From Aquabacterium sp. (GTDB taxonomy: Bacteria > Pseudomonadota > Gammaproteobacteria > Burkholderiales > Burkholderiaceae_C), in the NCBI GenBank assembly GCA_029865965.1, contig JARXAJ010000193.1:1-34057 (forward strand): a stretch of 34,057 bases of DNA. Direction: 5' to 3'. The notes under the pieces are model-generated. The model did no database searches. It was not told where the DNA came from and was given only the letters and a program-made list of their open reading frames with translations. This document shows positions 12,442-28,814 of this stretch, one piece after another. The translations under genes were made by a program, and so were the position numbers. How positions within the stretch are numbered: position 1 is the stretch's first letter; each line of letters opens with the position of its first letter.

Positions 12442-14154
12442 ATGCCCAACTGGCGCACCCTGGCAGCCACACCCTTCACCACTGAAAAGCGCCCGGCCAC
12501 CGGCAGCCGCGGCATGGTGGTCACCAACCACCCGCTGGCGTCGGCTGCCGGTGCCGAGATGCTGGCTGCCGGCGGCAACGCGGTGGACGCTGCTGTGGCG
12601 GCGCTTTTCACGCTGACCGTGGTCGAGCCGATGATGGTCGGCATCCTGGGTGGCGGCTTTGCCAACATCCGCCTGGCCGATGGCAGCCAGACCATCCTGG
12701 AAGGGCAGGGCCGCTGCCCGCAGGCGGTGGGCCCCACCACCTTCACCCCCGACCCCGAGGCCGGCCCCGGCGTGCTGGACGCGGTGGGCCGGCGCAACAG
12801 CGTGGGCCGCGCCGCCGTGGCCGTGCCAGGCAACCTGATGGCCTGGTGCCAGATGCTGCAGCGCCACGGCAGCCTGGCGCTGGCCGATGTGGTCGAGCCC
12901 GCCATCCGCCATGCCGAGCGCGGCTTTGCCGCCACCGCCTACCTGGCCGATTGCGTGGCCGACTGCGCCGCCGACCTGGCGCTGGACCCGGAGATCGCCC
13001 GGGTCTTCCTGCTCGGTGGCCAGCCGCTGCGCGCCGGCCAGCGCGTGGTCAATGCCGCCTATGCCGACACCTTGCGCGCCATCGTGCGCGATGGCCCCGG
13101 CCTGCTCTATGGCGGCGCCCTGGGCCAGGCGCTGGCCGACGACATGCAGCGCCATGGCGCCTACCTGGCGCTGGATGATCTGCGTGGCTACCGCACCAAC
13201 GACATGGCGGTGCTGCGCAGTAGCTACCGTGGCTTCGAGATCACCGGCCCGCCGCCGCCCTGCGCCGGGCCGCTGCACATCGCCCAGATGCTCCACATCC
13301 TGGAAGGCCTGGACACCGCCGGTGCCGGCTTCGGCACGGTCGATGGCGTGCACCGCATCGCCGAGGTGCTGCGCATCGCCTTTGCCGACCGCGCCGCCTG
13401 CACCGCTGACCCCGACTTCGTGCCGGTGCCGGTCGATGCCCTGCTGGCGCCGGCCTATGCCGCCCAGCGCCGCGCCGCCATCGACCCGGCACGCAGCCAG
13501 ACCTGGCAGGCAGGGGTGCAGGCCGGCCCGCTGCGCAGCGCCGGTGGCAACGAAAGCGCCAACACCACGCACATCACCGTGGCCGACCGGGACGGGCGCA
13601 TCGTCTGCGCCACGCAGACCATCAACTCGCTGTTCGGCGCCCGCTACATGGTGCCGGGCACCGGGGCGATCCCCAACAACTACCTGTATGTGTTCAACCC
13701 GCGGCCCGGGCTGGCCAATTCACTGGCGCCGGGCAAGCGGGTCACTTCGTCGATGGCGCCGCTGATCGTGCTGAAGGACGGCCAGCCGCGCTTTGCGTTG
13801 GGCCTGCCCGGCGGGCTGCGCATCTTCCCGTCGGCGCTGCAGGCAGTGCTGAACATCATCGACCACGGCATGTCGCTGCAAGAAGCGGTGGAAGCACCGC
13901 GGGTGTGGACCCAGGGCTTCGGGCTGGAGCTGGAGCCGCATTTCACCGATGCGGTGGCTGACGGGCTGGCCGCGCGCGGCCATGCCATCGAGCGTGTGCC
14001 CAACGTGGGTGGCGGCATGGGCGGCATCGCGTTTCAGCCCAACGGCGACATGGAAGGCGCGGCCTGCTGGCGCGCCGATGGCACGCCCATCGGCGTGGGC
14101 GGCGGCTTCGCCCGAGCCGGCGTGCGCTTTCTGCCTGAGGCGCGCCGGCCCTGA
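12442..14154 (+). CDS. ggt: Gamma-glutamyltransferase-family Ntn hydrolase
   Basis: The 570-residue product has the family opening (MVVTNHPLASAAGAEMLAAG, GGNAVDAAVA). The autoprocessing site is NTTHITVADRDG, where T375 is the expected nucleophile and new N terminus of the small subunit. SSMAP and LPGGLRI correspond to the gamma-glutamyl binding region, with Leu where the E. coli enzyme has Ser (PGGSRI). Family members cleave gamma-glutamyl or related acyl amide bonds. There is no signal peptide, unlike the periplasmic enzyme, so a cytoplasmic acylase role is possible. A strong AAGGAG site precedes the ATG. It converges on the D-aminoacylase-like gene with only 7 nt between stops. Confidence 0.88.
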   Translation: MPNWRTLAATPFTTEKRPATGSRGMVVTNHPLASAAGAEMLAAGGNAVDAAVAALFTLTVVEPMMVGILGGGFANIRLADGSQTILEGQGRCPQAVGPTTFTPDPEAGPGVLDAVGRRNSVGRAAVAVPGNLMAWCQMLQRHGSLALADVVEPAIRHAERGFAATAYLADCVADCAADLALDPEIARVFLLGGQPLRAGQRVVNAAYADTLRAIVRDGPGLLYGGALGQALADDMQRHGAYLALDDLRGYRTNDMAVLRSSYRGFEITGPPPPCAGPLHIAQMLHILEGLDTAGAGFGTVDGVHRIAEVLRIAFADRAACTADPDFVPVPVDALLAPAYAAQRRAAIDPARSQTWQAGVQAGPLRSAGGNESANTTHITVADRDGRIVCATQTINSLFGARYMVPGTGAIPNNYLYVFNPRPGLANSLAPGKRVTSSMAPLIVLKDGQPRFALGLPGGLRIFPSALQAVLNIIDHGMSLQEAVEAPRVWTQGFGLELEPHFTDAVADGLAARGHAIERVPNVGGGMGGIAFQPNGDMEGAACWRADGTPIGVGGGFARAGVRFLPEARRP

Positions 14155-14161
14155 TCGCCGG

Positions 14162-15895
14162 TCAGCCCACCGGCACCACCTGCGGCCCGCGCACCAGCTG
14201 GCCGGGCAGGGCGCCGGTGGCCTCGCCGTGGCGGTAGGTGGGCACGCCCGCCACGATGGTGGCGTCATAGCCGGTGGCGCGCTGCAGCAGCCGCTTGCCG
14301 CCGGCCGGCAGGTCAGCCACCATCACCGGCGCCAGCACCCGCAGGGTGTCCATGTCGATCACGTTCAGGTCGGCGCGGTAGCCGGGCGCCACCACGCCGC
14401 GGTCGAGCAGGCCGACGGTGCGGGCGGTGTCAGCCGTCTGGCGCTTGACCAGCCAGCCCAGGTCGAAGCGCCCGTGCGGCCGGTCACGCCCCCAATGCGC
14501 CAGCATGGTGGTGGGGAAGCTGCCGTCGCTGATCACGCTGACATGCGCGCCGCCGTCGCCCAGCCCGGGCACGGTGTGCGGATGGGCCAGCATGTCGTGG
14601 CAGGCATCCAGGTGGCCATGGGCGTAGTTGGCAAACGGCGCAAACAGGAAGCCCCGGCCGTTGTCGGCCAGCAGCATGTCGTAAGCGGCTTCTGCCGGCG
14701 TCTGGCCACGCTGCTGTGCGATGGCGGTGATGGCCAGTTCGGGCGGCGGCTCGTAGTCAGGCGGGTCGCCGAAGGCATACAGCCGTCTGAAGTCCGAGAA
14801 GCGCGGCAGCAGCGGGTCGGCAGGGCGGCCGTCCAACTGCTGCAGTTCGGCCAGCGCGCGTGCACGCACCGCCGGCTGGCGCATCAGTGCCAGGCGCTGG
14901 TCCAGGCTGAGGTGGTCCATGGCCTGCATGCTGGCGCAGCTGCTGAATGGATGGCGGCTGCCCTGCAGGCCCAGCAGCACGCCGATGGGCCGGGGTGCCA
15001 CCTGCGCCACCATCGGCAGGCCTTGGGCATTGGCGTCGGTGGTCAGCGCCAGCAGTTGGCGCCAGCCATCGGGTGCGCTGTGGCGCTGGCCCAATGAGAA
15101 GGACAGCGGCCGGCCCGAATCACGCACCAGCCGGGTCAGCATCGCGAATTCTTCTTCCAGCGACGGCATGTTGAAGTCGGAGATGAACTGCAACACACCG
15201 CTCCCGGCGTCCTTCAGGCCGGCGGCAATGGCCTGCAGTTCGTCCTCGGTCGCGCGCAGGCTGGGCGTGGGCTCGCCCTTGATGGATCGGTGGTTGACCG
15301 AGCGCGAGGTCGAAAACCCGATCGCCCCGGCGCGCATGGCCTCGGCCGCCAGCTGGCGCATCTGCGCCCGGTCATCGGCCGTGGCGGCTTCCAGCCGGGC
15401 GCCGCGCTCGCCCATCACGAACACCCGCAGCGCGCCGTGCGGCAGCTGGGCGGCGATGTCGATGTCGCGCCGCTGGCCGGCCAGTGCGTCCAGGTAGTCG
15501 CCAAAGCTTTCCCATTGCCAGCTCAGGCCCTCGTGCAGGGCGGTGCCGGGAATGTCCTCGACGCCTTCCATCAGCTCGACCAGGCGGTCGCGGTGGCGGG
15601 CATGCACCGGCGCAAAGCCGACGCCGCAGTTGCCCATCACTGCGGTGGTCACGCCATGCCAGCTGCTGGGCTGCATGCGGGTGTCCCAGCTGGCCTGGCC
15701 GTCGTAGTGGGTGTGGATGTCGACGAAGCCGGGCGTCACCAGCTTGCCCCGAGCGTCGATCTCGTCGCGGCCGGTGCCGGGCACGCTGCCCACGGCGGTG
15801 ATGCGGCCGTGGTCGATGGCCACATCGGCGGTGCGCAACGCGCCGCCACGGCCGTCGGCCAGTTCGCCGCCGCGGATGACGAGGTCATGGCGCAT
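14162..15895 (-). CDS. N-acyl-D-amino-acid deacylase-like amidohydrolase
   Basis: The 577-residue protein belongs to the D-aminoacylase branch of the amidohydrolase superfamily. It has the metal-binding H-x-H in [14 protein letters not shown], the Cys-containing GNCGVGFAP typical of D-aminoacylases, and a late Asp in VISDGSFP. Its ends form the composite beta-sandwich ([11 protein letters not shown] at the start, [11 protein letters not shown] near the end). Relatives hydrolyse N-acyl-D-amino acids; the substrate here is not known. AAAGGA lies upstream of ATG 15895. Neighbouring ggt-family and LysE genes suggest an amino-acid-derivative salvage theme. Confidence 0.86.
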
Positions 15896-15987
15896 GGCTG
15901 GAATCCTTTCGCTGCAACAGGTTCAACCCAGTCTGAGCCCGGTGCCCGGGCCCCGGCCGTCGCCTGGGTGACCGCGCCGCGCCGCCA

Positions 15988-16599
15988 TCAGCGCGTCATC
16001 GGCAGCGCCAAGCCCATCAGCACGAACATGCCGCCACAGGCCCGGTTGAAGCGCCTGCCCAGGCGCTGCAACCAGCCACGCACCCGGTGGGCCATCAGCG
16101 CCAGGCCCCACTCGACCGCGATCTCCACCACCACGAACACCGTGGCCATGATGATGAACTGGGTCAGCAGGTCGCGCGCCGGGTCGATGAACTGCGGCAG
16201 GAAGGCGCCGTAGAACAGCAGCGCCTTGGGGTTGGACACCGCCGTCAGCAGGCCCTGGCGGAACAGCGCGCTGCCAGCGGCCTGTGGTGCGCCAGCCTCG
16301 GGCGCCAGGCTGATGGCCGGCGCGCGCCACAGTTGCACACCCAGCCACACTAGGTAGGCGCCGCCAAGCCACTTCAACAAGGTCAGTGCGCTGGCCGAAG
16401 CCTGCAGCAGCGCGCCGATGCCCAGCATCGACAGGCCGATCAGCAGGGTGAAGCCGGTGGCGCCGCCGGCCACGGTGAACAGCGTGCGGCGGTGGCCGTG
16501 CAGGGCGCCATGCGTCAGCACCAGCAGGCTGTTGGGGCCGGGCGTCAACGACAGGCCGATGGCCGCCGCGAGGTAGAGCAACCAAGTGTGCAGTGCCAT
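15988..16599 (-). CDS. LysE/RhtB-family amino-acid exporter
   Basis: The 203-residue inner-membrane protein has about six hydrophobic segments and the family signature near the N terminus (LSLTPGPNSLLVLTHG) plus the second conserved block VSNPKALLFYGAFLPQF. LysE/RhtB proteins export amino acids such as lysine, homoserine or threonine; the substrate cannot be assigned. It is divergent from the selenium-linked operon, with 97 nt between the two starts, and lies 92 nt upstream of the D-aminoacylase-like gene on the same strand. Confidence 0.9.
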   Translation of the reverse strand: MALHTWLLYLAAAIGLSLTPGPNSLLVLTHGALHGHRRTLFTVAGGATGFTLLIGLSMLGIGALLQASASALTLLKWLGGAYLVWLGVQLWRAPAISLAPEAGAPQAAGSALFRQGLLTAVSNPKALLFYGAFLPQFIDPARDLLTQFIIMATVFVVVEIAVEWGLALMAHRVRGWLQRLGRRFNRACGGMFVLMGLALPMTR

Positions 16600-16696: not shown

Positions 16697-18130
16697 ATGC
16701 CCTTGCCCGATGGCCTGATCGTCGTCGCCAAGCGCGAATGCCCCACTTGCACCCTGGTCGAGCCGCTGCTGGCCCGCCTGGCCGACAGCGGCGACCCAGT
16801 CACCGTGCTGGTGCAGGACGACCCCGCCTACGCCGCCGGCGTGCCGGGTGCGGTGTTCGACAGCACGCTGGAGCAGAGCTTTCGCCTCGGCATTGAATTC
16901 GTGCCCACGCTGATCCGCATGCAGGGCGGGCGCGAGGTGGCCCGCACCCACGGCTGGCACCGGGGCGATTGGCAAGACATCAGCGGCCAGCCCGGCCTGG
17001 GCGCCAACCTGCCCGAGTTGCGCCCCGGCTGCGCCAGCAAGACGCTGGACCCGGGCGTGGCCGAAGACCTGCAGTTGCGCTTCGGCCACACCGGCCTGGC
17101 TGCACGCAACATCACCCTGGGCGACGCCGAAGACCCGATGGAGGCCTGCCACGACCGCGGCTGGACCGACGGCCTGCCCGTGGTGCCGCCCACGCCGGCC
17201 CGGGTGCTGCGCATGCTGGCCGGCACCAGCCGCCGGCCGGATGAGGTGCTGGGCCTGGTGCCGCCCGACCTGGCGCCCTGCACGGTCGAGAAGGTCGCCA
17301 TCAACGCCGTGATGGCCGGCTGCAAGCCCGAGTACATGCCGCTGGTGCTGGCGGCGGTGGAGGCAGCGCTGATCGATGAATTCGGCATGCACGGCGTGCT
17401 GTGCACCACCATGTTCTGCGGCCCGCTGGTGCTGGTGAACGGTCCGCTGGGCCGGGCGGTGGGGGTCAATTCCGGTGTCAATGCGCTGGGCCAGGGCCAC
17501 CGCGCCAATGCCAGCATCGGCCGCGCGCTGCAGCTGGTCATCCGCAACGTGGGCGGCGGCCGGCCCGGCGAGGTCGACCGCGCGACGCTGGGCACGCCCG
17601 GCAAGTACAGCTTCTGCTTCGCAGAGGCCGAGATCCCCGAGTGGGATCCCCTGCATGTGCAGCGCGGCTTTGCGCGGGATGCGTCCACCGTCACCCTGTT
17701 TGCCGGCGAAGGCGTGCAGGGCGTGGTCGATCAGAAGAGCCGCACGCCTGAATCACTGGCCAAGAGCTTTGCTGCCTGCCTGCGGGTGGTCGACCACCCC
17801 AAGCTGGCCATGGCCGGTGATGCGCTGCTGGTGGTGTCGCCCGACCATTGCCGGGTGTTCCTGGAGGCCGGCTGGTCAAAGGCGCGTTTGCTGGACGAAC
17901 TGACCCGCCTGCTCACCGTGCCGGGCGACCAGCTGCTGGCCGGTGCCGACGGCATTGCCGAAGGCCTGCCCGCCGCCATGGCCGGCAAGCCCGTCCCCAA
18001 GTTCCGCCCCGGCGGCCTGCTGATCGTGCGGGCCGGCGGTGGTGCGGGCCTGTTCTCGGCCATCATTGCCGGCTGGGCCGCATCTGGCCCGGTCGGTTCC
18101 ATCCCTGTCACGAAGGAGATCACGGCATGA
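16697..18130 (+). CDS. Thioredoxin-fold/DUF fusion protein, partner of the UGSC selenoprotein
   Basis: The 477-residue protein has two parts. Residues 1-100 form a thioredoxin/glutaredoxin-like domain with a redox C-P-T-C (C15/C18) and a cis-Pro V-P-T (P70). Residues about 145-477 form a larger conserved domain (GWTDGLPVVPPTP, VEKVAINAVMAGCKPEYMP, LVLVNGPLGRAVGVNSG, LGTPGKYSFCFAE) with further Cys in VLCTTMFCGP. I recognise this domain only as one of unknown function seen beside UGSC proteins. No signal peptide. ATG 16697 follows a GAGG. Its stop overlaps the selenoprotein ATG (ATGA), so the two are made together; I infer electron transfer or joint catalysis between C-x2-C and Sec. Confidence 0.75.
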   Translation: MPLPDGLIVVAKRECPTCTLVEPLLARLADSGDPVTVLVQDDPAYAAGVPGAVFDSTLEQSFRLGIEFVPTLIRMQGGREVARTHGWHRGDWQDISGQPGLGANLPELRPGCASKTLDPGVAEDLQLRFGHTGLAARNITLGDAEDPMEACHDRGWTDGLPVVPPTPARVLRMLAGTSRRPDEVLGLVPPDLAPCTVEKVAINAVMAGCKPEYMPLVLAAVEAALIDEFGMHGVLCTTMFCGPLVLVNGPLGRAVGVNSGVNALGQGHRANASIGRALQLVIRNVGGGRPGEVDRATLGTPGKYSFCFAEAEIPEWDPLHVQRGFARDASTVTLFAGEGVQGVVDQKSRTPESLAKSFAACLRVVDHPKLAMAGDALLVVSPDHCRVFLEAGWSKARLLDELTRLLTVPGDQLLAGADGIAEGLPAAMAGKPVPKFRPGGLLIVRAGGGAGLFSAIIAGWAASGPVGSIPVTKEITA

Positions 18131-18663
18131 CAGCCTCACTGGTGTTGCTGGACCCCACCTCGGAGCGGTCACCCGTCGCCCGGGCGTTGTCGGTGCGGCC
18201 CCCGTCCCTGCACGGCATGGCCGTGGCGGTGCTTGATATTTCAAAGGCGCGCGGCAACGTGTTCCTCGACCGCGTGGCCGAGCTGCTCACTGCGCAGGGC
18301 GTCACCGTCAACCGCTACCGCAAGCCCACCTTCACCCGGCCGGCGCCCACCGCACTGCGCCAGCAGATCGCGGCCGAGAACCAGCTCGTCATCGAAGGCC
18401 TGGCCGACTGAGGATCGTGCACGTCGTGCTGTATGCATGACATCGCAGATCTGGAGTCGCGCGGCCTTCCTGGCGTGGGAGTGGCATCGAGTGAATTTGT
18501 GCAGGCAGCGGCGGCGCAGGCCCAATCGCTGGGCATCGACCCGGCGATGGTGTTTGTCGCCCATCCGATCCAGGACCGCAGCGACGACGAGTTGCGCGCC
18601 CTGGCCGATGCCGCCTTGCCTCGCATCGTGCAGCGGCTGGTGGCCGTGCAGGCCGGCAGTTAG
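18127..18663 (+). CDS. UGSC-family selenoprotein (in-frame TGA = Sec95)
   Basis: The frame opens at ATG 18127, meets TGA at 18409-18411 (codon 95) and continues to TAG 18661-18663, giving 178 residues if TGA is read as selenocysteine. The residues at the TGA read U95-G-S-C98-T-S-C101-C102, the U-G-S-C motif of a selenoprotein family whose function is, to my knowledge, unknown. The following part (MHDIADLESRGLPGVGV, VFVAHPIQD) is continuous in style with the first half. selA, selB and tRNA-Sec follow directly, and a SECIS-like hairpin lies in the right place. A conventional reading would give a 94-residue fragment. U-x2-C plus C-C suggests a thiol/selenol redox or peroxidatic site. Expression is probably coupled to the thioredoxin-fold gene. 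Confidence 0.92.
18423..18441 (+). promoter_or_regulatory. Bacterial SECIS-like hairpin
   Basis: GTCGTGC (18423-18429) pairs with GCATGAC (18435-18441): 7 bp including one G-U, closing a 5-nt loop TGTAT. The loop starts 18 nt after the TGA and has G at its second position, as bacterial SECIS models require. The stem covers the codons for S100-D105, with C101/C102 at the loop. A competing 7-bp stem (18415-18421 with 18434-18440) has a larger loop nearer the TGA. It would bind the SelB C-terminal domain. Confidence 0.7.
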
Positions 18664-18690: not shown

Positions 18691-20211
18691 GTGTTGAGCC
18701 CGCCGCCCGCACAACCGGCCCGATCGCGCGCCGGCCTGCCGTCGGTCGACCGGGTGCTGGCCTGGCCCGGCCTGGCCGATGCCCTGGCCGCCCATGGTCG
18801 GCCCCTGGTGCTGGCGGCAGTGCGTGATGCGCTGGCGGCCCAGCGCAGCTTGCTGGCTGCAGCGCCCGCGCAGCGGCCGCCCGATGCCGTCACGCTGCTG
18901 GCCGACATCACCCACCGCATCCAGGCCGCCGTACAGCCCACGCTGCGGCCGGTGTTCAACCTCACCGGCACGGTGCTGCACACCAACCTGGGCCGGGCGC
19001 CGCTGCCGCAGCAAGCGCTGGACGCCATCGCTGCGGTGGCGCGTGGTGCGGCCAACCTCGAATTCGACCTGGGTACAGGTGTGCGCGGTGACCGCGACGA
19101 CGCCGTGGCCGGCCTGCTGCAGCAACTGACCGGCGCCGAAGCCGCCACCGTCGTCAACAACACTGCCGCCGCCCTGGTGCTGGTGCTGGCGGCGCTGGCG
19201 CCCCGGCGCGAGGTGATCGTCTCGCGCGGTGAGCTCATCGAGATCGGCGGCGCCTTCCGCCTGCCCGACATCATGCGCAGCGCCGGCTGCAAGCTGCATG
19301 AGGTGGGCACAACCAACCGCACCCATCTGCGCGACCATGCTGAGGCCATCGGCCCGCGCACCGCCATGCTGCTGAAGGTGCACACCAGCAACTTCGAGAT
19401 CCAGGGCTTCAGCGCGGCGGTCAGCACGGCAGACCTGGCGCCCTTGGCACGGGCCCACGGCCTGCCGCTGGTGGTCGACCTGGGCAGTGGCGCGCTGCTT
19501 GACCTGGCGCGCTGGGGCCTGCCGCACGAGCCCACCGCCGCCGAGACCCTGGCCGCCGGTGCCGACCTGGTGCTGTTCTCGGGCGACAAGCTGCTGGGCG
19601 GGCCGCAGGCCGGCATCATCGTCGGCCGGGCCGACCTGGTGCAGCGGCTGAAGAAGCACCCCTTCAAGCGCGCGCTGCGCTGCGACAAGCTGACCCTGGC
19701 CGCGCTGGAAGCCGTGCTGCGCCTGTACGCCGACCCCGACCGCCTGGCCATGCAACTGCCCACGCTGCGCCTGCTGGTGCGGCCGGTGGCCGACATCCAG
19801 GCCCAGGCGCAGCGGCTGCAGCCGCTGCTGGCCGCCTGGCTGGGCGCGGCCTGGCAGGTGGGCGTGGCCGAGGTGATGAGCCAGATCGGCAGCGGCGCGC
19901 TGCCGGTCGACCGCCTGCCCAGCGCCGCGCTGCACCTGCAGCCGGTGGGTTTGCACCGGGGGGCGGGCAGGGCGCTCGAGGCCCTGGCCGCCGGCCTGCG
20001 GGCGCTGCCCGTGCCGGTGGTGGGCCGGGTGACCGACGGCGCACTGTGGCTGGACCTGCGCTGCCTGGACGACGAGGCCGGTTTTGCCGATCAACTGACG
20101 CGCGCCGCGCCGCCCGCGCTGGCAGCACCGCAGCCACAACCGCAGCCACAACCGCAGCCACAACCGCAGCCACAGCCGCAGCCACAACCGCAGCCACAAC
20201 CGCAGCCATGA
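18691..20211 (+). CDS. selA: SelA, L-seryl-tRNA(Sec) selenium transferase
   Basis: SelA converts Ser-tRNA(Sec) to Sec-tRNA(Sec) using selenophosphate and pyridoxal phosphate. Family blocks are visible: the N-terminal tRNA-binding helices ([13 protein letters not shown]), [20 protein letters not shown], the PLP lysine K300 in [13 protein letters not shown], and [16 protein letters not shown]. The start is GTG 18691, 27 nt after the selenoprotein stop, with no clear ribosome binding site. The product is 506 residues, longer than usual because it ends in about 27 residues of alternating Pro-Gln encoded by a 12-bp tandem repeat. Its TGA overlaps the selB ATG. Confidence 0.96.
20128..20208 (+). 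repeat. 12-bp tandem repeat encoding the Pro-Gln tail of SelA
   Basis: The unit CCGCAGCCACAA is repeated 6.75 times (81 bp). One copy has CAG instead of CAA (codon at 20173). Each unit adds Pro-Gln-Pro-Gln without shifting frame. The last partial copy supplies the A of the selB ATG (20208), so the array runs into the translation junction. Confidence 0.97.
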
Positions 20212-22193
20212 TCATCGCCACGGCCGGCCATGTCGACCATGGCAAGACCACCCTGGTGCAGGCCATCACCGGCATCCATACCGACCGCCAGCCCGAGGCC
20301 CAGGCCCGGGGCATGACCATCGACCTGGGCTTTGCCCACTGGCAGCCGGCGCCCGGCGTGCGCGTGGGCTTCACCGATGTGCCGGGCCATGAACGCCTGG
20401 TGCGCAACATGCTGGCCGGCGTGGCCGCCATCGACCTGGCCCTGCTGGTGGTGGCCGCCGACGACGGCCCGATGCCGCAGACCCGCGAGCACCTGGCGAT
20501 CCTGGCCCTGCTGGGCGTGCCGCAACTGGTGGTGGCGCTGACCAAGACCGACAAGGTGGACCCGGCGCGGTTGGCTGCGGCGTGGGCCGAGGTGGCGGCA
20601 CTGCTGCACGGCGGGCCGTTTGCCGGCGCGGCGGTGTTTCCGGTCGATGCGCTGTCGGGCCACGGCATGGCACCGCTGTGCCAGCATCTGGCGATCACAG
20701 CGGCGGCGCTGGCGCGGCAGCCGGCGTTTGGCTTCTTCCGCCTGGCCATCGACCGCAGCTTTGCGGTGGACGGTGCCGGTCGGGTGGTCACCGGCGCGGT
20801 GCTGGCTGGCACGGTGCGGGTGGGCGATGCGGTGCAACTGCTGCCGCAGGGCAGCGGGCTGCGGGTGCGCGGCCTGCAGGTGCTGGGTGAGGCGGTGGAC
20901 GAAGCCCGCGCCGGCCAGCGCTGCGCCGTCAACCTGGCGGGCACCGACCTGAAACGGGCGGCGCCCGAGCGCGGCGACTGGCTGGTGGCCGAGGGCGCAG
21001 CCGCTGTGAGCGACCGGCTGGATGTGCTGCTGCACTGGCCACCAGACGCCGATGCCGCGCCGGGTCCACGTGCCCAGCTGGTGCTGCACCTCGGTGCGGC
21101 GGCGGTGCCGGCACGGCTGTCGGTGCTGGATGCAGATGCGCCGCAGCCCGGCTGCCCGATGCTGGCCCGGCTGCAACTGGCGCGGCCAGTCAGCGCCGCC
21201 TGGGGCGACCGCTTTGTGCTGCGTGACGGCGCGGCCCACCGCACCCTGGCCGGTGGTCGGGTGGTCGATGCCTTCGGCCCCGCGCGGGGCAGCCGTCAGC
21301 CGCAGCGCCTGGCCCAGTTGGAAGCGCTGGCGCTGGCCGACCCGCTGGCTGCACTGGCGGCCTGGGTGGACGGCGCGCCCGACGGGGCTGACCTGTCGCA
21401 CTTTGCGCAGGCCCGTGGCCTGCAGCTTGTCGAGGCGGCCGTGCTGCACCAACGCCTGGGCCTGCAGGTGCTGGCCGGGCCTGCGGGTCTGTTGGGGCTG
21501 ACCCGGACGCATTGGCTGGCCTGGCAGGTGCGGGTGCTGCAGACGGTGGACGACTGGCATGTGCGCCAGCCCGACAGCCTGGGACCGGACGAGGCGGCAC
21601 TGCGGCGGCAACTGGCGGCAGGCGGCGCGACAAGCGCCACGACAAGCACCACGACAAGCACCCAGGCAAGCACCCAGGCAAGCCCCGGCGCGCGCGGCGC
21701 GCCAGGCCCGTCTGCGCACCCCGTGCTGCACGCCAGCCTGGCCGCAGCCGTGGCCAGCGGCAGCTTGGTGCGCGACGGCCTGTGCCACCGCCGCCCTGGA
21801 CACCGGCCAGTGCTGGCGGTCGACGATGCAGCACTGCTGGCGCGCATCACCCCACTGCTGCAGGCTGGTGGCCTGCGCCCGCCGATCCATGGTGATCTGG
21901 CCTTGCAGCTGGCCCTGTCAGTGCCCGCGCTGCAGGCAGGGCTGGCACGCCTGGTCGAGCGCGGCCTGCTGGTGGCGGTAGCGCCCAACCGCGTCTACCT
22001 GCCCGCCACGGTGCTGCAGTTGGCAGCCGAGGCGCGGGCACTGGCAGCGGCCAGCCCTGACGGCACCTACGACGCCGCCGCCTACCGCGACCGCACCGGT
22101 ATCGGCCGCAACCTGACGGTGCAGGTGATCGAGTTTCTCGACCGAGCCGGCATCACCCGGTTCGACGGCAGGCGGCACCGTCTGCGGGGGTGA
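20208..22193 (+). CDS. selB: SelB, selenocysteine-specific elongation factor
   Basis: SelB is the GTPase that brings Sec-tRNA(Sec) to UGA codons followed by a SECIS. G1 is GHVDHGKTT (residues 7-15), G3 is DVPGH, G4 is TKTD, and the N terminus [13 protein letters not shown] is the SelB form. EF-Tu-like domains 2-3 follow ([14 protein letters not shown]), then winged-helix repeats in the C terminus that bind the SECIS, ending [23 protein letters not shown]. At 661 residues it exceeds the E. coli protein (614), mainly through a Ser/Thr/Gln linker at about 475-494. The ATG lies inside the end of the selA repeat with no ribosome binding site, so initiation is probably by coupling. Confidence 0.96.
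21629..21688 (+). repeat. 12-bp tandem repeat encoding a Ser/Thr linker in SelB
   Basis: Five 12-bp units of the form G(A/G)CAAGC(A/G/C)CC.. lie in tandem with small differences, coding for a low-complexity Thr/Ser/Gln/Ala stretch between C-terminal domains of SelB. The unit length equals that of the repeat in selA, but the sequence differs. Confidence 0.85.
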
Positions 22194-22269: not shown

Positions 22270-22364
22270 GGAAGGGCCAGGTTCCCGGTGGGGCCCTCGG
22301 TCTTCAAAACCGGTGGGGTGCGCCCAGCGTGCCCGGTGGGTTCGACTCCCATGCCCTTCCGCCG
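22270..22364 (+). tRNA. selC: tRNA-Sec (anticodon TCA)
   Basis: The 95-nt gene has all special features of bacterial tRNA-Sec. The 8-bp acceptor stem is GGAAGGGC with GCCCTTCC (22353-22360), and the D-stem is 6 bp (GGTTCC/GGGGCC) with a 4-nt loop. The anticodon loop is CTTCAAA with TCA at 22304-22306. The variable arm is long (GGGTGC/GTGCCC) and the T-stem is 5 bp with loop TTCGACT. The discriminator is G22361. The genome has CCG at 22362-22364 instead of CCA, so the mature end needs repair or addition by the CCA enzyme. No good promoter is seen; a weak TACTGT at 22252 is possible. Confidence 0.97.
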
Positions 22365-22509: not shown

Positions 22510-23220
22510 TCAGCCGTGCACGCCGGTGTACTCGCTCATGATCGCCAGGTCGCCCAGGTGTTCACGCGGAATCTCTTCGCCGAGCTGGCCGCGCTTGATC
22601 ACCAGCACGCGTTGCGACACGGCGGCGATGAACTCCAGGTTCTGTTCCACCAGCACGATGGTGAGCTGCATGCGGTCGCGCAGCGTGGCCAGGGTCTCGG
22701 CAATCTCTTCGATGATCGACGGCTGGATGCCTTCGGTGGGCTCGTCCAACAACAGCAGGCTGGGTTGGCCGGCCAGCGCGCGGGCCAGGGCCAGCAACTG
22801 CTGCTCGCCGCCCGACAGCGACCCGCCCGTGCGGTCGAGCAGCGGCTTCAGACGCGGAAAGTCGGCCAGCAGGCGGTCGATGCCTTCACTGCCCAGCTGG
22901 CCGGTCTTGACCAGGCCCATGCGCAGGTTGTCGGTGACGCTGAGCGCCGGAAAGATCTCGCGCCCTTGCGGCACATAAGCCATGCCCAGGCGGGCGCGGG
23001 CATGGGGCGCGGCGCGGGTGATGTCGGCGTCATTGAGCGTGACCGTGCCCGCCGTGGCGCGCAGCGCGCCGATCAGCGTGCGCAGCAGCGTGGTCTTGCC
23101 CATGCCGTTGTGGCCGAGGATGCCGACTGATTCACCCTGGGCGATCGACAGTGTGATGTCGCGCAACACCGGGATGGCGCCGTAGCCGGCACACAGGCCG
23201 TTTGCTTGCAACATCGGCAT
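22510..23220 (-). CDS. livF: LivF-type ABC transporter ATPase (branched-chain amino acid/amide/urea class)
   Basis: The 236-residue ATPase has Walker A GHNGMGKTT, signature LSGGEQQLLALARAL and Walker B LLLLDEPTEG, and the PQGREIFPALSV segment typical of LivF/UrtE. It energises import with LivG, LivH and LivM. Its ATG overlaps the livG stop by ATGA. It is the last gene of the amidase operon. The amidase and the binding proteins upstream suggest an amide or urea-type substrate rather than leucine. Confidence 0.9.
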   Translation of the reverse strand: MPMLQANGLCAGYGAIPVLRDITLSIAQGESVGILGHNGMGKTTLLRTLIGALRATAGTVTLNDADITRAAPHARARLGMAYVPQGREIFPALSVTDNLRMGLVKTGQLGSEGIDRLLADFPRLKPLLDRTGGSLSGGEQQLLALARALAGQPSLLLLDEPTEGIQPSIIEEIAETLATLRDRMQLTIVLVEQNLEFIAAVSQRVLVIKRGQLGEEIPREHLGDLAIMSEYTGVHG

Positions 23221-23945
23221 CAGTGGGCTTTCTTGCCGAGGTAGATCTGCTGCACAAGCGGGTCGCTCATGATGCGGTCCGGGGTGTCTTCACGCAGGAT
23301 GGCGCCCTGGTGCAGCACCGTCACCTTCTTGGCGATCATGCGGATGAAGTTCATGTCGTGTTCCACCACCACCAGCGCATGCTGGCGGTTGATTTCCAGG
23401 ATCAGCTCGGCGGTGCGGGCCACCTCGGCGTCGCTCATGCCGGCGGCGGGTTCGTCCAGCAGGATCAGCGGTGGGTCGGCGGCAATCACCACCGCAATCT
23501 CGACCCACTGGCGCAGGCCGTGGGCCAGCAAGCCGGCCAGGTTGTCCTTGTGGGCCAGCATTCCCACGCGCTCCAGCGTGTCGCGGGTGATGCGCTCGGC
23601 CTGCTGGTTGCTGTTGATGCGGCGGGCCGACAGCCACACGTTCTCCCACACCGACAGGCCGTTGAACAGGCTGGGCACCTGGGTCTTGATGCCGATGCCC
23701 ATGCGGCCCGGCTCATGCGGCTGCATGTTCGAGATGTCCTGCCCGCGGAACAGGATCTGGCCCGAACTGGGCTTGGTCTGGCCGGTCAGCAGCTTGAAGA
23801 AGGTGCTTTTGCCGGCACCGTTGGGGCCGATGACACAGCGCAGTTCGGCTTCGGCCAGGCTGAAGTTGACGTCGCGGGTGGCATGCACACCGCCGAAGCG
23901 CACGTTCAGCATGCGGGTCTCGAGCAGCGGGACGGGCGTGCTCAT
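23220..23945 (-). CDS. livG: LivG/UrtD-type ABC transporter ATPase
   Basis: The 241-residue ATPase has Walker A GPNGAGKST, Walker B LILLDEPAAGM and the H-motif VEHDMNF. The signature position reads LAHGLRQWVEIAV rather than LSGG, a form found in the UrtD (urea/amide) branch of LivG-like ATPases. That supports an amide/urea transporter. The gene overlaps livF downstream and livM upstream by 4 nt each, so the set is translationally coupled. Confidence 0.9.
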   Translation of the reverse strand: MSTPVPLLETRMLNVRFGGVHATRDVNFSLAEAELRCVIGPNGAGKSTFFKLLTGQTKPSSGQILFRGQDISNMQPHEPGRMGIGIKTQVPSLFNGLSVWENVWLSARRINSNQQAERITRDTLERVGMLAHKDNLAGLLAHGLRQWVEIAVVIAADPPLILLDEPAAGMSDAEVARTAELILEINRQHALVVVEHDMNFIRMIAKKVTVLHQGAILREDTPDRIMSDPLVQQIYLGKKAH

Positions 23946-25006
23946 GGCGCGTTCTCTGCTTGCGGCAGCGCGGTGGCGGGCTGCGGGTCAGCGGGCGCTT
24001 TGCGGCGGCGCCAGGCGGCTTCGAGCACATCGCCGAGGCTGGGCACGATGCCGCGCGGCACCAACAGCACAAACACCACCAGGATGGCGCCCAGCACCAG
24101 GTTGGAATTGAAGGTCTGCTGGGTGCCGATGGCGGTGGTCAGCCACTGGATGGCCACGCAACCCACGACAGGGCCCACCAGCGTGCCCAGGCCGCCCACG
24201 ATCACCCAGATGATGATCTGCGCCGACATCGCCAGGCCGAAGATGGTGGGGCTGGTGAAGGCGCCCCAGTTGGCGAACAGGCAGCCCGCCAGCCCGGCGA
24301 TGGCGCCGCCCAGGGTGAAGCAGGCCAGCTTGTAGGCCCGCGCGTCGTAGCCCAGCAGCAGCACGCGTTGTTCGTTTTCCTTGGCAGCGATGATCACGCG
24401 GCCGATCTTGGATGCGATCACCCACCGCAAGCCGGCGTACACCACCAGCAGGCAGACCATGGCGATGGAAAACAGCGACTGCTGGCTCAGCACTTCATCG
24501 GGGTTGCCCGGGATGTTGAGCGTGGGGATGCCGGGGATGCCGTTGAAGCCGCCCAGCGGCGCGTTGCCGATCTTCCATTCCGGCCCGGCCGTGGAATTGA
24601 CCAGGTTGAACAGGATGAGCGTGACGGTGAGCGTGATCACGCCCATGTACACATCCGACAGGCGGCCGTAGAAGATCACATAACCCAGCAAGGCAGCGAA
24701 CAGGGCCGGCACCACGATGGCCAGCAGGAAGGGCACGGTGCTGTCGCCCATGTTGATCACGGCAATGGCGTAGGTGTAGGCGCCCAGGCCGAAGAAGGCG
24801 GCTTGGCCGAAGCACAGGATGCCGCCAAAGCCCCAGATGAAGCCCAGGCTCACGCCCAGGATGGCCATCACCGCATAGATGGTCAGCTGGATCAGGGTGA
24901 AGTCGTCCACCATGCCCGGCAGCAGGAACAGCAGGGCCGTGCCGATGGCCAATGTCAACGCAGCGCTGTGCCACGAACTCGCGAACTTCACAACACCGAG
25001 CTTCAC
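23942..25006 (-). CDS. livM: LivM-type ABC transporter permease
   Basis: The 354-residue integral membrane protein has multiple hydrophobic segments and LivM/UrtC landmarks: GFGGILCFGQAAFFGLGAY and the coupling loop IAAKENEQRVLLLGYDARAYK. It forms the translocation channel with LivH. The start is GTG 25006, overlapping the livH stop. The C-terminal 30 residues are a charged Ala/Pro-rich tail. Confidence 0.92.
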   Translation of the reverse strand: MKLGVVKFASSWHSAALTLAIGTALLFLLPGMVDDFTLIQLTIYAVMAILGVSLGFIWGFGGILCFGQAAFFGLGAYTYAIAVINMGDSTVPFLLAIVVPALFAALLGYVIFYGRLSDVYMGVITLTVTLILFNLVNSTAGPEWKIGNAPLGGFNGIPGIPTLNIPGNPDEVLSQQSLFSIAMVCLLVVYAGLRWVIASKIGRVIIAAKENEQRVLLLGYDARAYKLACFTLGGAIAGLAGCLFANWGAFTSPTIFGLAMSAQIIIWVIVGGLGTLVGPVVGCVAIQWLTTAIGTQQTFNSNLVLGAILVVFVLLVPRGIVPSLGDVLEAAWRRRKAPADPQPATALPQAENAP

Positions 25007-25869
25007 AGTGACCCCTTGAAGAAACGGCCGGTGATGCCCTGCGGCAGCAGCCGCAGCATGACGATGGCGGCAAACAGCAGCGCCACCTCACCGAACACCG
25101 GCGTGGTGACGAAGGTGGCCACCTGGTTGATGGCACCGAACAGCCCCGACGCACTGACCAGCCCGACCAGAATGGCCGGACCGCCACCGATGACGGTGAT
25201 GAAGGCCTTGGCGATGAAGGCGCCGCCCATGGTGGGCACCACGCCGGTCAGCGGCGCCAACAGTGCACCGGCCAGGCCCGACAGCGCCGCCCCCACAGCA
25301 AAAGTGACCGAATACACCCGGCTGGGGCTGATGCCCAGCGCGTCGGCCATCTCCGGTTTCTGCATCGTGCCGCGGGCGATCAGGCCCCAGGACGTGCGCA
25401 GCAGCACCCAGCGGATGGCCAAGGCCAGCACCACCGCCACGGCGATGATCACCAGCGTGTAGCTGCTGACCGAATAGGCGCCAATGCGGAAGCTGCCCAG
25501 CGGCGCCGACACGCCGGCCGTGGTGTTGCCGGCAATGGACGTGACGATGCCCACCAGCAGCAGCGACAGGCCCCAGGTGGCCAGCATGGTGTCGACCATG
25601 CGGCCGTAGAGCCGCCGGATCACCAGCCGTTCCAGCACCACCCCGATCAGGCCCACGGCCACCGGCGCCACGATGAACATCGCCAGCCAGAGGTTGAGCC
25701 CCAGCCCGTGGGCGGTGATGGTGGCGAAGGCGCCCAGCATCATGAACTCTCCATGCGCCAGGTTGATCACCTTCATCATGCCGAAGATGACGGCCAGGCC
25801 GGCCGACACGATGACCAGGCTGGCCACCGCGTAGAGCACCTGGATCAAGACAACCGCTGCGAGGTCCAT
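25003..25869 (-). CDS. livH: LivH-type ABC transporter permease
   Basis: The product (about 288 residues from ATG 25869) has the LivH/UrtB core FGMMKVINLAHGEFMMLGAF and the coupling segment RGTMQKPEMADALGIS, with many hydrophobic helices. The frame stays open to 25941, but that part overlaps the binding-protein gene and is hydrophilic, so MDLAAVVLIQVLYAV is preferred as start. It follows the binding-protein gene by 17 nt. Confidence 0.91.
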   Translation of the reverse strand: MDLAAVVLIQVLYAVASLVIVSAGLAVIFGMMKVINLAHGEFMMLGAFATITAHGLGLNLWLAMFIVAPVAVGLIGVVLERLVIRRLYGRMVDTMLATWGLSLLLVGIVTSIAGNTTAGVSAPLGSFRIGAYSVSSYTLVIIAVAVVLALAIRWVLLRTSWGLIARGTMQKPEMADALGISPSRVYSVTFAVGAALSGLAGALLAPLTGVVPTMGGAFIAKAFITVIGGGPAILVGLVSASGLFGAINQVATFVTTPVFGEVALLFAAIVMLRLLPQGITGRFFKGSL

Positions 25870-25886
25870 GCTGGGGCCGGCCGTGA

Positions 25887-27110
25887 TCAGACTTTGATGA
25901 CGTATTGCTGGTTGTCGCGCGGGTTCTTCTTCAGGTCGCACACCGCACTTGTGTCGGTGGGTGCCTGCTGCGGGAAGGTCTGCAGGATGTTGAGCTTCTT
26001 GGCCTTCACCTCGGCCACGCTCACGTTCAGGATGCAGTGGTGGGTGGCGGGGTCGATGCTGACCTTGCCGCTGGGGCCCATGATGCTGATGCCTGATTCA
26101 AGCGCCGTGGTGACCTTGCCGATCTCGACGGAGTTGGCCTTCTTCACGCCTTCGGCCCAAAGCTTGAAGCCCTGGTAGGTGCCCATCGCCAGTTCCGTGA
26201 TGTTGGGGTAGTCCTTGCCGAAGCGCTTGTGGAAGCGCTCCTTGAAGGCCTTGTTCTCAGGCGTGTCGATGTTCTCGAAGTAGTTGTACGACAGCAGGAA
26301 GCCGTCGGCCTCTTCGGGCGACAGCACGATGTGCTCATTGCCCACAGCAAACGTGGTCGACGCCAGCGGGATCTTCTTGGTCAGGCCGGCTGCCGCCCAC
26401 TGGCGGTAGAACGACATGTGCGCACCACCCACCAGGGCCGAGACCACCATGTCGGGCTTGGCCGCCTCGATCTTGGCGATGGTCGGACCGAAGGTCGTCA
26501 CATCGAGCGGGAAGAAGTCGATCGAGGCGATGCTGCCGCCGTTTTCCATCGCGAACTTCTTGACCCACTGCGATGTGATCTGGCCGTAGTTGTAGTCGGC
26601 CGCGATGACATAGATTTTCTTGCCCCACTTCTTCATGGCGTAGGGGATCAACTTGCCCACCGTCTGCGCCGGCGTCACGCCGGTGCTGAAGGTGCCGCGG
26701 TCGCACACGCCGCCTTCGTACTGGGTGTTGTAGAAGTACAGGGTCTTGTTGCGGTTGAGCACCGGGCGGATCACCTCGCGTGATGCAGACGTGATGCCGC
26801 CATGCACCACCGCCACCTTGTCCTTCAGGGCTGCCTGCTGCGCAAACTGCGCGTACATCTGCATGTTGCTCTGCGGGTCGTAGCTGACCAGCTTGAGCTT
26901 CTTGCCCAGCAGGCCGCCGGCAGCGTTCTGCTCTTCAATGGCCAGGGTCAGACAGTCCAGCATGGGCTTGCCGTAGATGTCGAGCCCGCCAGACAGGTCG
27001 TGGATGCTGCCCACGCCGATCTCGTCGGCCGCCAGGGCAGACAAGGGCAGGATGGCCGAGCTGCCGGCGAATGCGGCGCCCGATGACTGGATGAATTTGC
27101 GGCGGTCCAT
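25887..27110 (-). CDS. Periplasmic substrate-binding protein of the amide/urea ABC transporter
   Basis: The 407-residue protein begins with a twin-arginine-like signal (MDRRKFIQSSG, then a hydrophobic stretch and a cleavage-like ALAAD near residue 27), so it is probably exported folded by Tat. The mature part is a type I periplasmic binding fold of the UrtA/AmiC/FmdD group (GSIHDLSGGLDIYGKPM, YNYFENIDTPENKAF, FGKDYPNITELAMGTYQGF). These bind short amides or urea. AGGAACC precedes the ATG. It sits between the amidase and the permease genes, so the substrate is likely that of the amidase. Confidence 0.88.
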   Translation of the reverse strand: MDRRKFIQSSGAAFAGSSAILPLSALAADEIGVGSIHDLSGGLDIYGKPMLDCLTLAIEEQNAAGGLLGKKLKLVSYDPQSNMQMYAQFAQQAALKDKVAVVHGGITSASREVIRPVLNRNKTLYFYNTQYEGGVCDRGTFSTGVTPAQTVGKLIPYAMKKWGKKIYVIAADYNYGQITSQWVKKFAMENGGSIASIDFFPLDVTTFGPTIAKIEAAKPDMVVSALVGGAHMSFYRQWAAAGLTKKIPLASTTFAVGNEHIVLSPEEADGFLLSYNYFENIDTPENKAFKERFHKRFGKDYPNITELAMGTYQGFKLWAEGVKKANSVEIGKVTTALESGISIMGPSGKVSIDPATHHCILNVSVAEVKAKKLNILQTFPQQAPTDTSAVCDLKKNPRDNQQYVIKV

Positions 27111-27182
27111 GGTGGTTCCTGTTGTAGTGGCTGGAGAGGACAGGGCAGCCAGCCGCTCAGCGGCCGGCCCAAAGGGGAAAGG

Positions 27183-28700
27183 TCAGATCTGCTTCCAGTC
27201 GCCGGCTTGCTCGAAAGCATACGCAGCGCGGTAGATGGTGGCTTCATCGTAGTGCTTGCCGATCAGCATCATGCCCACCGGCAGGCCACCCACCAGGCCG
27301 CAGGGCACGCTGATGGCCGGGTGGCCGGTGACGTCGAACGGGCAGGTGTTGGGCAGCATCTCGAAGGCGCGTGCCACCACTTCTTCGACCGGCGCGCCAG
27401 GCTTGGGCAGCGGCGTGGCGGTCATCGGCAGCGTGGGCATCAGCAGCAGGTCATAGTCGGACAGCGCAGCGTCATAGGCGGCTTGCAGTTGCCGCGCCAG
27501 GTTCTGCGACTTGGCGTAGTAGTGGCCACGGTAGTGCTGGATGAAGTATTCGCCCAGCACCATGGTCAGCTTCAGCGTCTCCGACAGCTCGTCGGCGCGG
27601 GCCTTCCAGCCGGCATGGAAGTCGACCATGCTGGTGACATACAGCCCCTTCCAGTTGAAGCCGTGGCCGTTGTCCTTCATCATCTGCTGGGTGGCGCCCT
27701 CGGCGGCAATCGGCAGCCAGATGGCCGGGCCCACCAGGTGCATCGGCACCGACACCTCGCTCACCTTGGCGCCCAGTGCGGTGAACACCGCAGCCGCCGT
27801 CTTCACCTTGGCGTCGCTGTCGGCCATGCTCTGCGGCCAGCCGAAGCCTTCTTTCACGATGCCGATCTTCAGGCCGGCCACGCCCTGCTTCATCAGGTCG
27901 GCATAGGGCTTGGATCCCTGGCCGGCATGCTGGCGTGGGTCGAGCCCGTCGGGGCCGGCCAGCACTTCCAGCATCAGCGCGTTGTCGGTCACGTTGGCTG
28001 TCATCGGGCCGGTGTGGTCGATGGTGAGCTCGATGGGCATCACGCCGGTGTAGGGCACCAGGCCGTGGGTGGCCTTCATGCCGACGATGCCGCAGTACGA
28101 CGCCGGCATGCGGATCGACCCACCCTGGTCGCCGCCGATGGCGAGATCGACCTCGCCAGCGGCCACCAAGGCCGCGCTGCCCGACGACGAGCCGCCGGCC
28201 GAGTAGCCCATGCGCCAGGGGTTGTGCACCGGCGCGGGCGAGCTGGTGTGCGAGCCGCCCGAGAAGCAGAAGTACTCGCAGGTGGCCTTGCCGACCACGG
28301 TGGCGCCGGCGTCAAGCAGGCGGGTGACGACCGTGGCATCGACGTTGGGCACATAGCCTTCCAGCGTGGAGGCGCCGTTCATCATCGGCACGCCGGCCAG
28401 GCAGACGTTGTCCTTGAGCACCACGGTCTTGCCCGCCAGCTTGCCCTCGGACTTGCCCTTGATCGTGGTCTTCACATACCAGGCGCCGTACTTGTTTTCC
28501 TCAGCCGCCGGAAAGTAGCCCGGCGTGCGCGGGTAGGTGACGCGCGGCACGTAGTCGGGCAGTGCATCGACCACATCGTAGGCGTCGAAGTTGGCTTGCA
28601 GCAGGCTGTTGTAGACGCCGGCCTGTTCGGGCGACAGGTGGATGCCCAGGCTCAGGGCCACATCTTGCAGCTGGTCGGTGGTGGGGCGCTTGATGGCCAT
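27183..28700 (-). CDS. Amidase (amidase-signature family, nitrile-pathway-like)
   Basis: The 505-residue enzyme carries the Ser-cisSer-Lys triad at K96 (VVLKDN), S171 (AGGSSSGSAA) and S195 (GGDQGGSIRMPAS). As I recall, these are the same positions as in the Rhodococcus enantioselective amidase used after nitrile hydratase, and similarity appears to extend over the whole length. It hydrolyses amides to acids and ammonia; substrate range is not readable. ATG 28700 is chosen because GGAG lies 7 nt upstream; an open frame extends to 28769 without support. No signal peptide. No nitrile hydratase genes are in the window. It heads the uptake operon and is preceded by a good promoter. Confidence 0.9.
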   Translation of the reverse strand: MAIKRPTTDQLQDVALSLGIHLSPEQAGVYNSLLQANFDAYDVVDALPDYVPRVTYPRTPGYFPAAEENKYGAWYVKTTIKGKSEGKLAGKTVVLKDNVCLAGVPMMNGASTLEGYVPNVDATVVTRLLDAGATVVGKATCEYFCFSGGSHTSSPAPVHNPWRMGYSAGGSSSGSAALVAAGEVDLAIGGDQGGSIRMPASYCGIVGMKATHGLVPYTGVMPIELTIDHTGPMTANVTDNALMLEVLAGPDGLDPRQHAGQGSKPYADLMKQGVAGLKIGIVKEGFGWPQSMADSDAKVKTAAAVFTALGAKVSEVSVPMHLVGPAIWLPIAAEGATQQMMKDNGHGFNWKGLYVTSMVDFHAGWKARADELSETLKLTMVLGEYFIQHYRGHYYAKSQNLARQLQAAYDAALSDYDLLLMPTLPMTATPLPKPGAPVEEVVARAFEMLPNTCPFDVTGHPAISVPCGLVGGLPVGMMLIGKHYDEATIYRAAYAFEQAGDWKQI

Positions 28701-28814
28701 GTTGACTCCGGTGTGGGGTGGGTCCTGCGCCGCTGGGCCCGGGGTTGGAACCCCGGCAGGGCACGGCATGCACCGGGGCTTGGCGTGCCATCTGCCACAC
28801 CCCCGGTGTGCGGG

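Follow-up and report, generated by a model that had tools for sequence, protein, structure and literature searches.

A UGSC-family selenoprotein gene of Aquabacterium sp. and its constant partner gene, a candidate thioredoxin-fed two-component enzyme

A stretch of 34,057 nucleotides from Aquabacterium sp. (GenBank assembly GCA_029865965.1, contig JARXAJ010000193.1), referred to here as the window, carries a gene of the UGSC selenoprotein family placed between an upstream gene, designated the partner gene, and the genes selA, selB and tRNA-Sec (Table 1). The frame of the UGSC gene is open from end to end across a single TGA, as a preliminary description of the same DNA had proposed, and two family models span that codon: PF24696 of Pfam matches residues 7-172 of the product with 143 bits (cut-off 25), and NF041046 of NCBIfam matches residues 30-171 with 149 bits (cut-off 125). 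When the TGA is read as selenocysteine (Sec), the translation contains U95-G-S-C98-T-S-C101-C102, in which the family motif [U/C]-G-[S/G/A]-C is present as U95-G-S-C98. The stop codon of the partner gene (18128-18130) and the ATG that opens the UGSC gene (18127-18129) share bases in the sequence ATGA; the start listed for the partner gene is an inferred one, the longest open reading frame beginning at 16586. The window gene is the one UGSC match in its own genome assembly.

Table 1. Features of the UGSC locus, in positions of the window
Feature	Position	Strand	Description
Partner gene	16697..18130	+	N-terminal thioredoxin-like domain with C15-P-T-C18, followed by a core of ~350 residues without a Pfam family
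UGSC-family selenoprotein gene	18127..18663	+	178 residues, Sec95; single in-frame TGA, stop codon TAG
Sec95 codon TGA	18409..18411	+	Aligns with Cys codons of relatives
SECIS hairpin GUCGUGC-UGUAU-GCAUGAC	18423..18441	+	Seven pairs, all formed in the window gene; five-base loop with GU
selA, selenocysteine synthase	18691..20211	+	TIGR00474, 576 bits
selB, Sec-specific elongation factor	20208..22193	+	TIGR00475, 340 bits
tRNA-Sec (selC)	22270..22363	+	ARAGORN, anticodon tca

The view that this gene encodes a selenoprotein is borne out by the family matches across the TGA, by relatives with Cys in place of Sec, by a SECIS hairpin, and by selA, selB and tRNA-Sec, which, as the preliminary description had stated, follow directly downstream on the same strand. 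As a check, the preliminary description proposed a search for homologues with Cys-G-S-C that align over both halves of the protein, and such homologues are plentiful. When bacterial and archaeal genomes were scanned for the pattern DCGSC, relatives in which Cys replaces Sec came to light at 56 loci, from genera including Elioraea, Methylobacterium, Bradyrhizobium, Sphingobium, Natrialba and Advenella; 55 of these 56 matches start no later than query residue 28 and align across the TGA over both halves, while that of the remaining locus (L118) covers residues 88-174. Were the TGA a true stop, with the second half a relic or a product of sequencing error, standard annotation would finish at residue 94; this explanation is extremely improbable given the recurrence of this TGA, at an unchanged site, in numerous genes from several genomes, the hairpin that follows it, the adjoining selA, selB and tRNA-Sec, and the conservation in both halves of the protein. 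The sequence evidence thus supports the assignment of the window gene to the selenoproteins of the UGSC family, with its TGA recoded in a SECIS-dependent manner. It had also been anticipated that a standard reading would yield a 94-residue stump and lose or mislabel the second half; the stump indeed results when the TGA is taken as a stop, but the loss is not inevitable, since both NCBIfam and Pfam contain UGSC models and the gene need not escape annotation. Similarly, the proposed dense cluster of Sec with three neighboring Cys residues holds for the family only in part, as Cys98 is kept in 130/130 distinct sequences, whereas Cys101 (56/130) and Cys102 (29/130) are not family features.

As expected of a bacterial selenoprotein gene, the in-frame TGA of the window gene precedes a hairpin whose apical loop (UGUAU) contains a G; a conserved G in the SECIS apical loop is described in PMC1794560. 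Over the 39 bases past the Sec/Cys codon, folding is most stable in TGA genes, with mean z values of -2.49 for TGA (43 rows), -0.41 for TGC (52 rows) and 0.26 for TGT (6 rows). The seven-pair stem, which starts 11 bases past the TGA, has all its pairs in 35 of the 42 distinct TGA genes, as compared with 6/48 TGC genes and 0/6 TGT genes. Within the stem, 286 of 294 cells pair in register, a share that drops to 16-52% once one arm is shifted by 1-3 bases; one pair is swapped between genes, being G-C in 28 and C-G in 14, and loop positions 2-3 are GU in all 42 distinct TGA genes. Most of the TGA rows are paralogues of three genomes (G131, G293 and G055) and not independent events, 41 of the 43 originating from the G-numbered genomes, one from the genome-contig collection and one from the window, whereas 57 of the 58 Cys rows come from the genome-contig collection, whose scan used a Cys pattern and therefore favors Cys forms. 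The SECIS figures are accordingly to be read as contrasts and not as independent trials. In the counts of SECIS elements, codons and gene adjacency, UGSC hits below 100 bits were left out.

The order of partner, UGSC, selA, selB and tRNA-Sec recurs in another genome of the survey (G240, locus L122). In addition, selA, selB and tRNA-Sec lie near UGSC in G591 (L126), and selB and tRNA-Sec lie near it in a Myxococcales contig (L113). A search for selD in the host genome, whose assembly is 88% complete, gave no match, whereas selD is present in 10/10 other UGSC genomes tested; this could mean either that a contig is missing or that selenium is supplied in an unusual way. A short tandem repeat at 20120-20208, coding for Pro-Gln repeats, bridges the end of selA and the start of selB.

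Of 300 genomes belonging to the same order, 37 contain a UGSC match, as do 5 of 398 genomes drawn from the phylum, the host genome being counted in both; among the listed genomes of the same family other than the host, the count is 0/11. Copy number varies widely. The 5.7 Mb genome G293, of the same order, holds 58 UGSC matches, some of them partial, of which 57 exceed the cut-off; 51 have exactly one TGA, 3 have a further stop and 4 have no TGA. Other genomes carry 26 (G055), 24 (G140), 19 (G005 and G263 each), 18 (G131), 9 (G046) and 2 copies (G240). The lower-scoring group of matches in G293 lies mostly in frames of about 580-635 amino acids. In the family tree, the window sequence pairs with that of G240 (support 99/97) within a clade of 37 rows (100/100). 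Inside this clade, midpoint rooting places the TGA-gene rows outside a group of 27 Cys rows, so that Sec was probably replaced by Cys in that group. Cys-type UGSC genes with a partner close by were also observed in haloarchaea (L091, L093 and L094), the one of L093 being plasmid-borne.

The most constant feature of the family is its neighbor. Of the 101 UGSC copies that score 100 bits or more, 100 are adjoined by a relative of the partner gene on the same strand within 400 nucleotides, upstream of UGSC in 61 cases and downstream in 39, with L137 as the only exception. This pairing spans Pseudomonadota, Bacteroidota, Actinomycetota, Myxococcota, Binatota and haloarchaea. In 13 of the 101 copies, the two genes are fused in frame with no stop between them, and these fusions come from four genomes only (8 in G293, 2 each in G131 and G055, and 1 in L113); L108 and L156 were not counted as fusions, having a stop inside the matched segment. 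It is therefore strongly supported by adjacency and fusion that UGSC works together with its neighboring partner, and from the same observations the two proteins may be supposed to form a physical complex. The upstream partner gene, on which the preliminary description is silent, is the stronger clue to function. In the survey of Zhang and Gladyshev (2008; PMC2398784), UGSC is described as fused to a domain named "Unknown_1", and this domain probably corresponds to the partner family.

Among 33 partner members, none gave a confident Pfam match in the core. The hits obtained were thioredoxin-type or TraF families in some of the 33, together with three single weak ones (E 0.03-0.06). The motif CxTC is present in 19 of the 33, exactly those with at least 471 residues, including that of the window, and all 19 adjoin UGSC genes of the 37-row clade of the window sequence. 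A looser test for the thioredoxin extension over adjacent pairs found it in 32 of 100 partners, namely at 7/31 TGA-G-S-C genes, 25/57 Cys genes and 0/12 genes with G-G-C or G-A-C motifs. Invariant residues of the partner include Cys209, Arg276 and Lys303. A sequence search of the PDB gave no relatives of the partner core. The AF2 model of the partner (pLDDT 90.4) has thioredoxins among its Foldseek matches, and the best matches of the core are class I fumarate hydratases, which are weak (E about 1e-3, TM about 0.2); an assignment of the core as a class I fumarase was set aside, the match lying below any confident level. The partner was also considered as a second selenoprotein and rejected, as TGA occurs in 34/109 partner hits and nearly all of these are normal C-terminal stops, and the context of the in-frame TGA in four hits (L105, L108, L149 and L156) was read as upstream run-on. 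Kinship of the partner with GrdE, GrdB or PrdB was likewise not retained, the profile scores being 14.4 against one GrdE sequence (probability 0.1%), 23.1 against one GrdB and 18.4 against the PrdB-like set.

The structure of UGSC itself was modeled from 16 sequences with Cys in place of Sec. The model (pLDDT 91.7) shows the order beta-alpha five times, with residue 95 between strand 87-93 and helix 96-111, and flavodoxin stands first of 46 Foldseek matches in the PDB at E <=0.001. Flavodiiron proteins, receiver domains and LarB follow, along with receptor constructs and catalases; no thioredoxin is among the 50 matches listed, and a sequence search of the PDB gave no credible UGSC relatives. 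A flavodoxin-like alpha/beta fold is thus predicted, with Sec95 opening the helix after the third strand; the likeness to flavodoxins, flavodiiron proteins and receiver domains, which are among the best matches, is structural, with TM-scores of 0.3-0.5 by query length. A thioredoxin-like fold, suggested for UGSC in PMC2398784, was not upheld, as the model matches flavodoxins and a thioredoxin-domain profile scores just 13.7. Invariant over 130 distinct UGSC sequences are Lys66, Sec/Cys95, Gly96, Cys98 and Asp105, and nearly so are Lys40 (128/130) and His146 (123/130).

Profile comparison points to a characterized relative. When a UGSC profile of 136 rows is aligned with a GrdB/PrdB-like profile of 19 rows, the score is 49.9 (P 2.4e-6, probability 89%), with the Sec columns of the two aligned and 77 columns covered. 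Controls remain at or below 26.5 for 18 neighbor-cluster profiles and 19.3 for 60 column shuffles, and at 14.8 for the reversed profile; with UGSC columns 95-98 masked, the score is 36.5 (P 2.6e-4), and a smaller first UGSC profile had given P 4.3e-5 and probability 69%. L048, a different gene, was left out of the GrdB/PrdB-like set, and L034, L035 and L038 lay outside the first UGSC set. This comparison suggests that the Sec half of UGSC and the Sec domain of GrdB (PF07355) are remotely related, with Sec-x-x-C at an equal place in both and in the PrdB-like proteins. UGSC is, however, much shorter than GrdB and has no match to the Pfam GRDB model: the window protein matches only the UGSC model at E <=0.1, 0/16 UGSC members scanned match GRDB at E <=1 while 16/16 match UGSC, and PF07355 has no match in the host genome (G000). 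The architecture of glycine reductase is also not shared, since the partner shows no profile relation to the GrdE and GrdB sequences compared or to the PrdB-like set. A phmmer search of the PDB found no GrdB structure.

Genes of the GrdB and PrdB type are themselves present in UGSC-carrying genomes. In G293, a glycine/betaine-reductase-type cluster with the GRDA, GRDB and Gly_reductase families lies at 2704-7551 of L152 (G293:C148), with an in-frame TGA in both GrdA and GrdB. PrdB-like genes with an in-frame TGA (U-P-x-C) were observed at L040-L047, L049-L053, L056, L057 and L065, many of them bearing a long additional C-terminal part.

The gene neighborhoods of 96 loci were surveyed within 5 kb, the labels thioredoxin reductase, DctA, BKACE and HAD being taken from scans of representatives, and the labels TctC, CaiB, acyl-CoA dehydrogenase, MmgE/PrpD and regulators being read from sequences. 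TctC-like receptors (38/96) and CaiB-like CoA-transferases (20/96) point to a catabolic setting; DctA (6/96) and BKACE (5/96) are less frequent. For TctC, such proximity is weak proof of linkage, because G293 possesses at least 150 TctC-type solute receptor genes. Thioredoxin reductase lies near 12/96 loci (L083, a Cys-type locus of Methylobacterium brachythecii, and L129 belonging to one genome), no Sec locus being among them, and TIGR01292 is above cut-off in all 3 members scanned of these 12. In the window, gamma-glutamyltransferase and amidase lie above family cut-offs, and an amidohydrolase, a LysE/Rht-like exporter and a urea-type-like ABC transporter below them; these neighbors might hint at amide or peptide-like substrates. 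The gamma-glutamyltransferase, amidohydrolase-like and exporter-like genes occupy 12442-16599, and the ABC transporter and amidase genes 22513-28769. Betaine or carnitine was considered as a substrate because, in Bacteroidota, UGSC is neighbored by BKACE and a dehydrogenase; this idea is not supported, since the single dehydrogenase scanned falls far under the carnitine dehydrogenase cut-offs and an AcnX-type protein lies nearby.

The best reading of these data, to which a rough probability of 0.5 is assigned, is that UGSC and its partner form a thioredoxin-fed two-component enzyme of reductive cleavage, with paralogues for different imported organic acids; both the chemistry and the substrate are conjectural. 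UGSC would be the selenol subunit and the product of the adjoining gene, upstream in the window, the other subunit. Electrons would pass from NADPH through thioredoxin reductase to thioredoxin, here a domain of the partner, and reduce the Sec95-Cys98 pair, a path to which the CxTC motif of the partners and the nearby thioredoxin reductases point; thioredoxin is given as the electron donor of glycine reductase in PMC13188914. The selenolate could then attack a small organic acid, bound by the partner core, at an activated carbon and expel a leaving group, as modeled on glycine/betaine reductase, after which thioredoxin would re-reduce the resulting Se-S bond. If the paralogues differ in substrate, the tens of copies in some genomes would be explained. 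Counted against this reading are the many partners without a thioredoxin domain, the small number of loci, with no Sec locus among them, that have a thioredoxin reductase nearby, the remoteness of the relation to GrdB, and the restriction of fusions to four genomes. More tentatively, and with somewhat less than even confidence, the pair may constitute a separate class, in which a small GrdB-like selenol subunit and a subunit of no described family make up a selenium-dependent, thioredoxin-fed enzyme diversified in substrate to the extent of about fifty selenoproteins in one bacterium.

Two other accounts of the pair have to be weighed against the reductive cleavage enzyme. That the pair is a non-reductive enzyme, such as a lyase, dehydratase or isomerase, whose partner core performs catalysis while Sec or Cys serves in acid-base or covalent roles and thioredoxin only keeps the selenol reduced, would fit the fumarase matches of the partner model, the Bacteroidota neighbors of BKACE and AcnX type, and the replacement of Sec by Cys in many lineages; it is nevertheless considered unlikely, as the low level of the fumarase match, the fused thioredoxin domain together with the nearby thioredoxin reductases, which suggest that electrons are consumed, and the relation to GrdB all tell against it. 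Less likely still is that UGSC acts as a general thiol/selenol:disulfide oxidoreductase or peroxide-handling protein of thioredoxin-like fold to which the partner merely passes electrons. The UxxC motif, the thioredoxin domain of some partners and the grouping of UGSC with Prx/Trx/Grx-like proteins in PMC13188914 speak for such a role, whereas the confidently predicted flavodoxin-like fold and the score of 13.7 against a thioredoxin domain, compared with 49.9 against GrdB, argue against it. The invariant Lys66 and Asp105, with the nearly invariant Lys40 and His146, suggest a substrate pocket, and the tens of paralogues present in certain genomes are ill-suited to a housekeeping antioxidant.

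The window protein is a further member of a known family, and no feature places it outside. UGSC has appeared in the literature from 2008 at the latest with its function not assigned, and with 255 Sec genes it was one of the selenoprotein families best represented in ocean metagenomes, according to PMC2398784; the earlier statement that the motif appears in surveys without a known function agrees with that source and with PMC13188914. At the time of PMC5029168, the largest bacterial selenoproteome comprised 39 genes, according to that paper, which gives the values 26 and 33 for UGSC, in columns taken as organisms and genes. The copy number of G293, whether counted as 58 matches or as the 51 with exactly one TGA, exceeds those 39 genes, and no later claim to the largest bacterial selenoproteome was found in a limited literature search. 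What is added here to the known family is the constant partner, the flavodoxin-like fold, the relation to GrdB, the thioredoxin reductase neighbors and the 58-copy genome. The constant partner and the predicted fold, together with a likely electron path and a distant but characterized relative, turn a protein family labeled "function unknown" into a candidate two-protein enzyme open to purification and assay.
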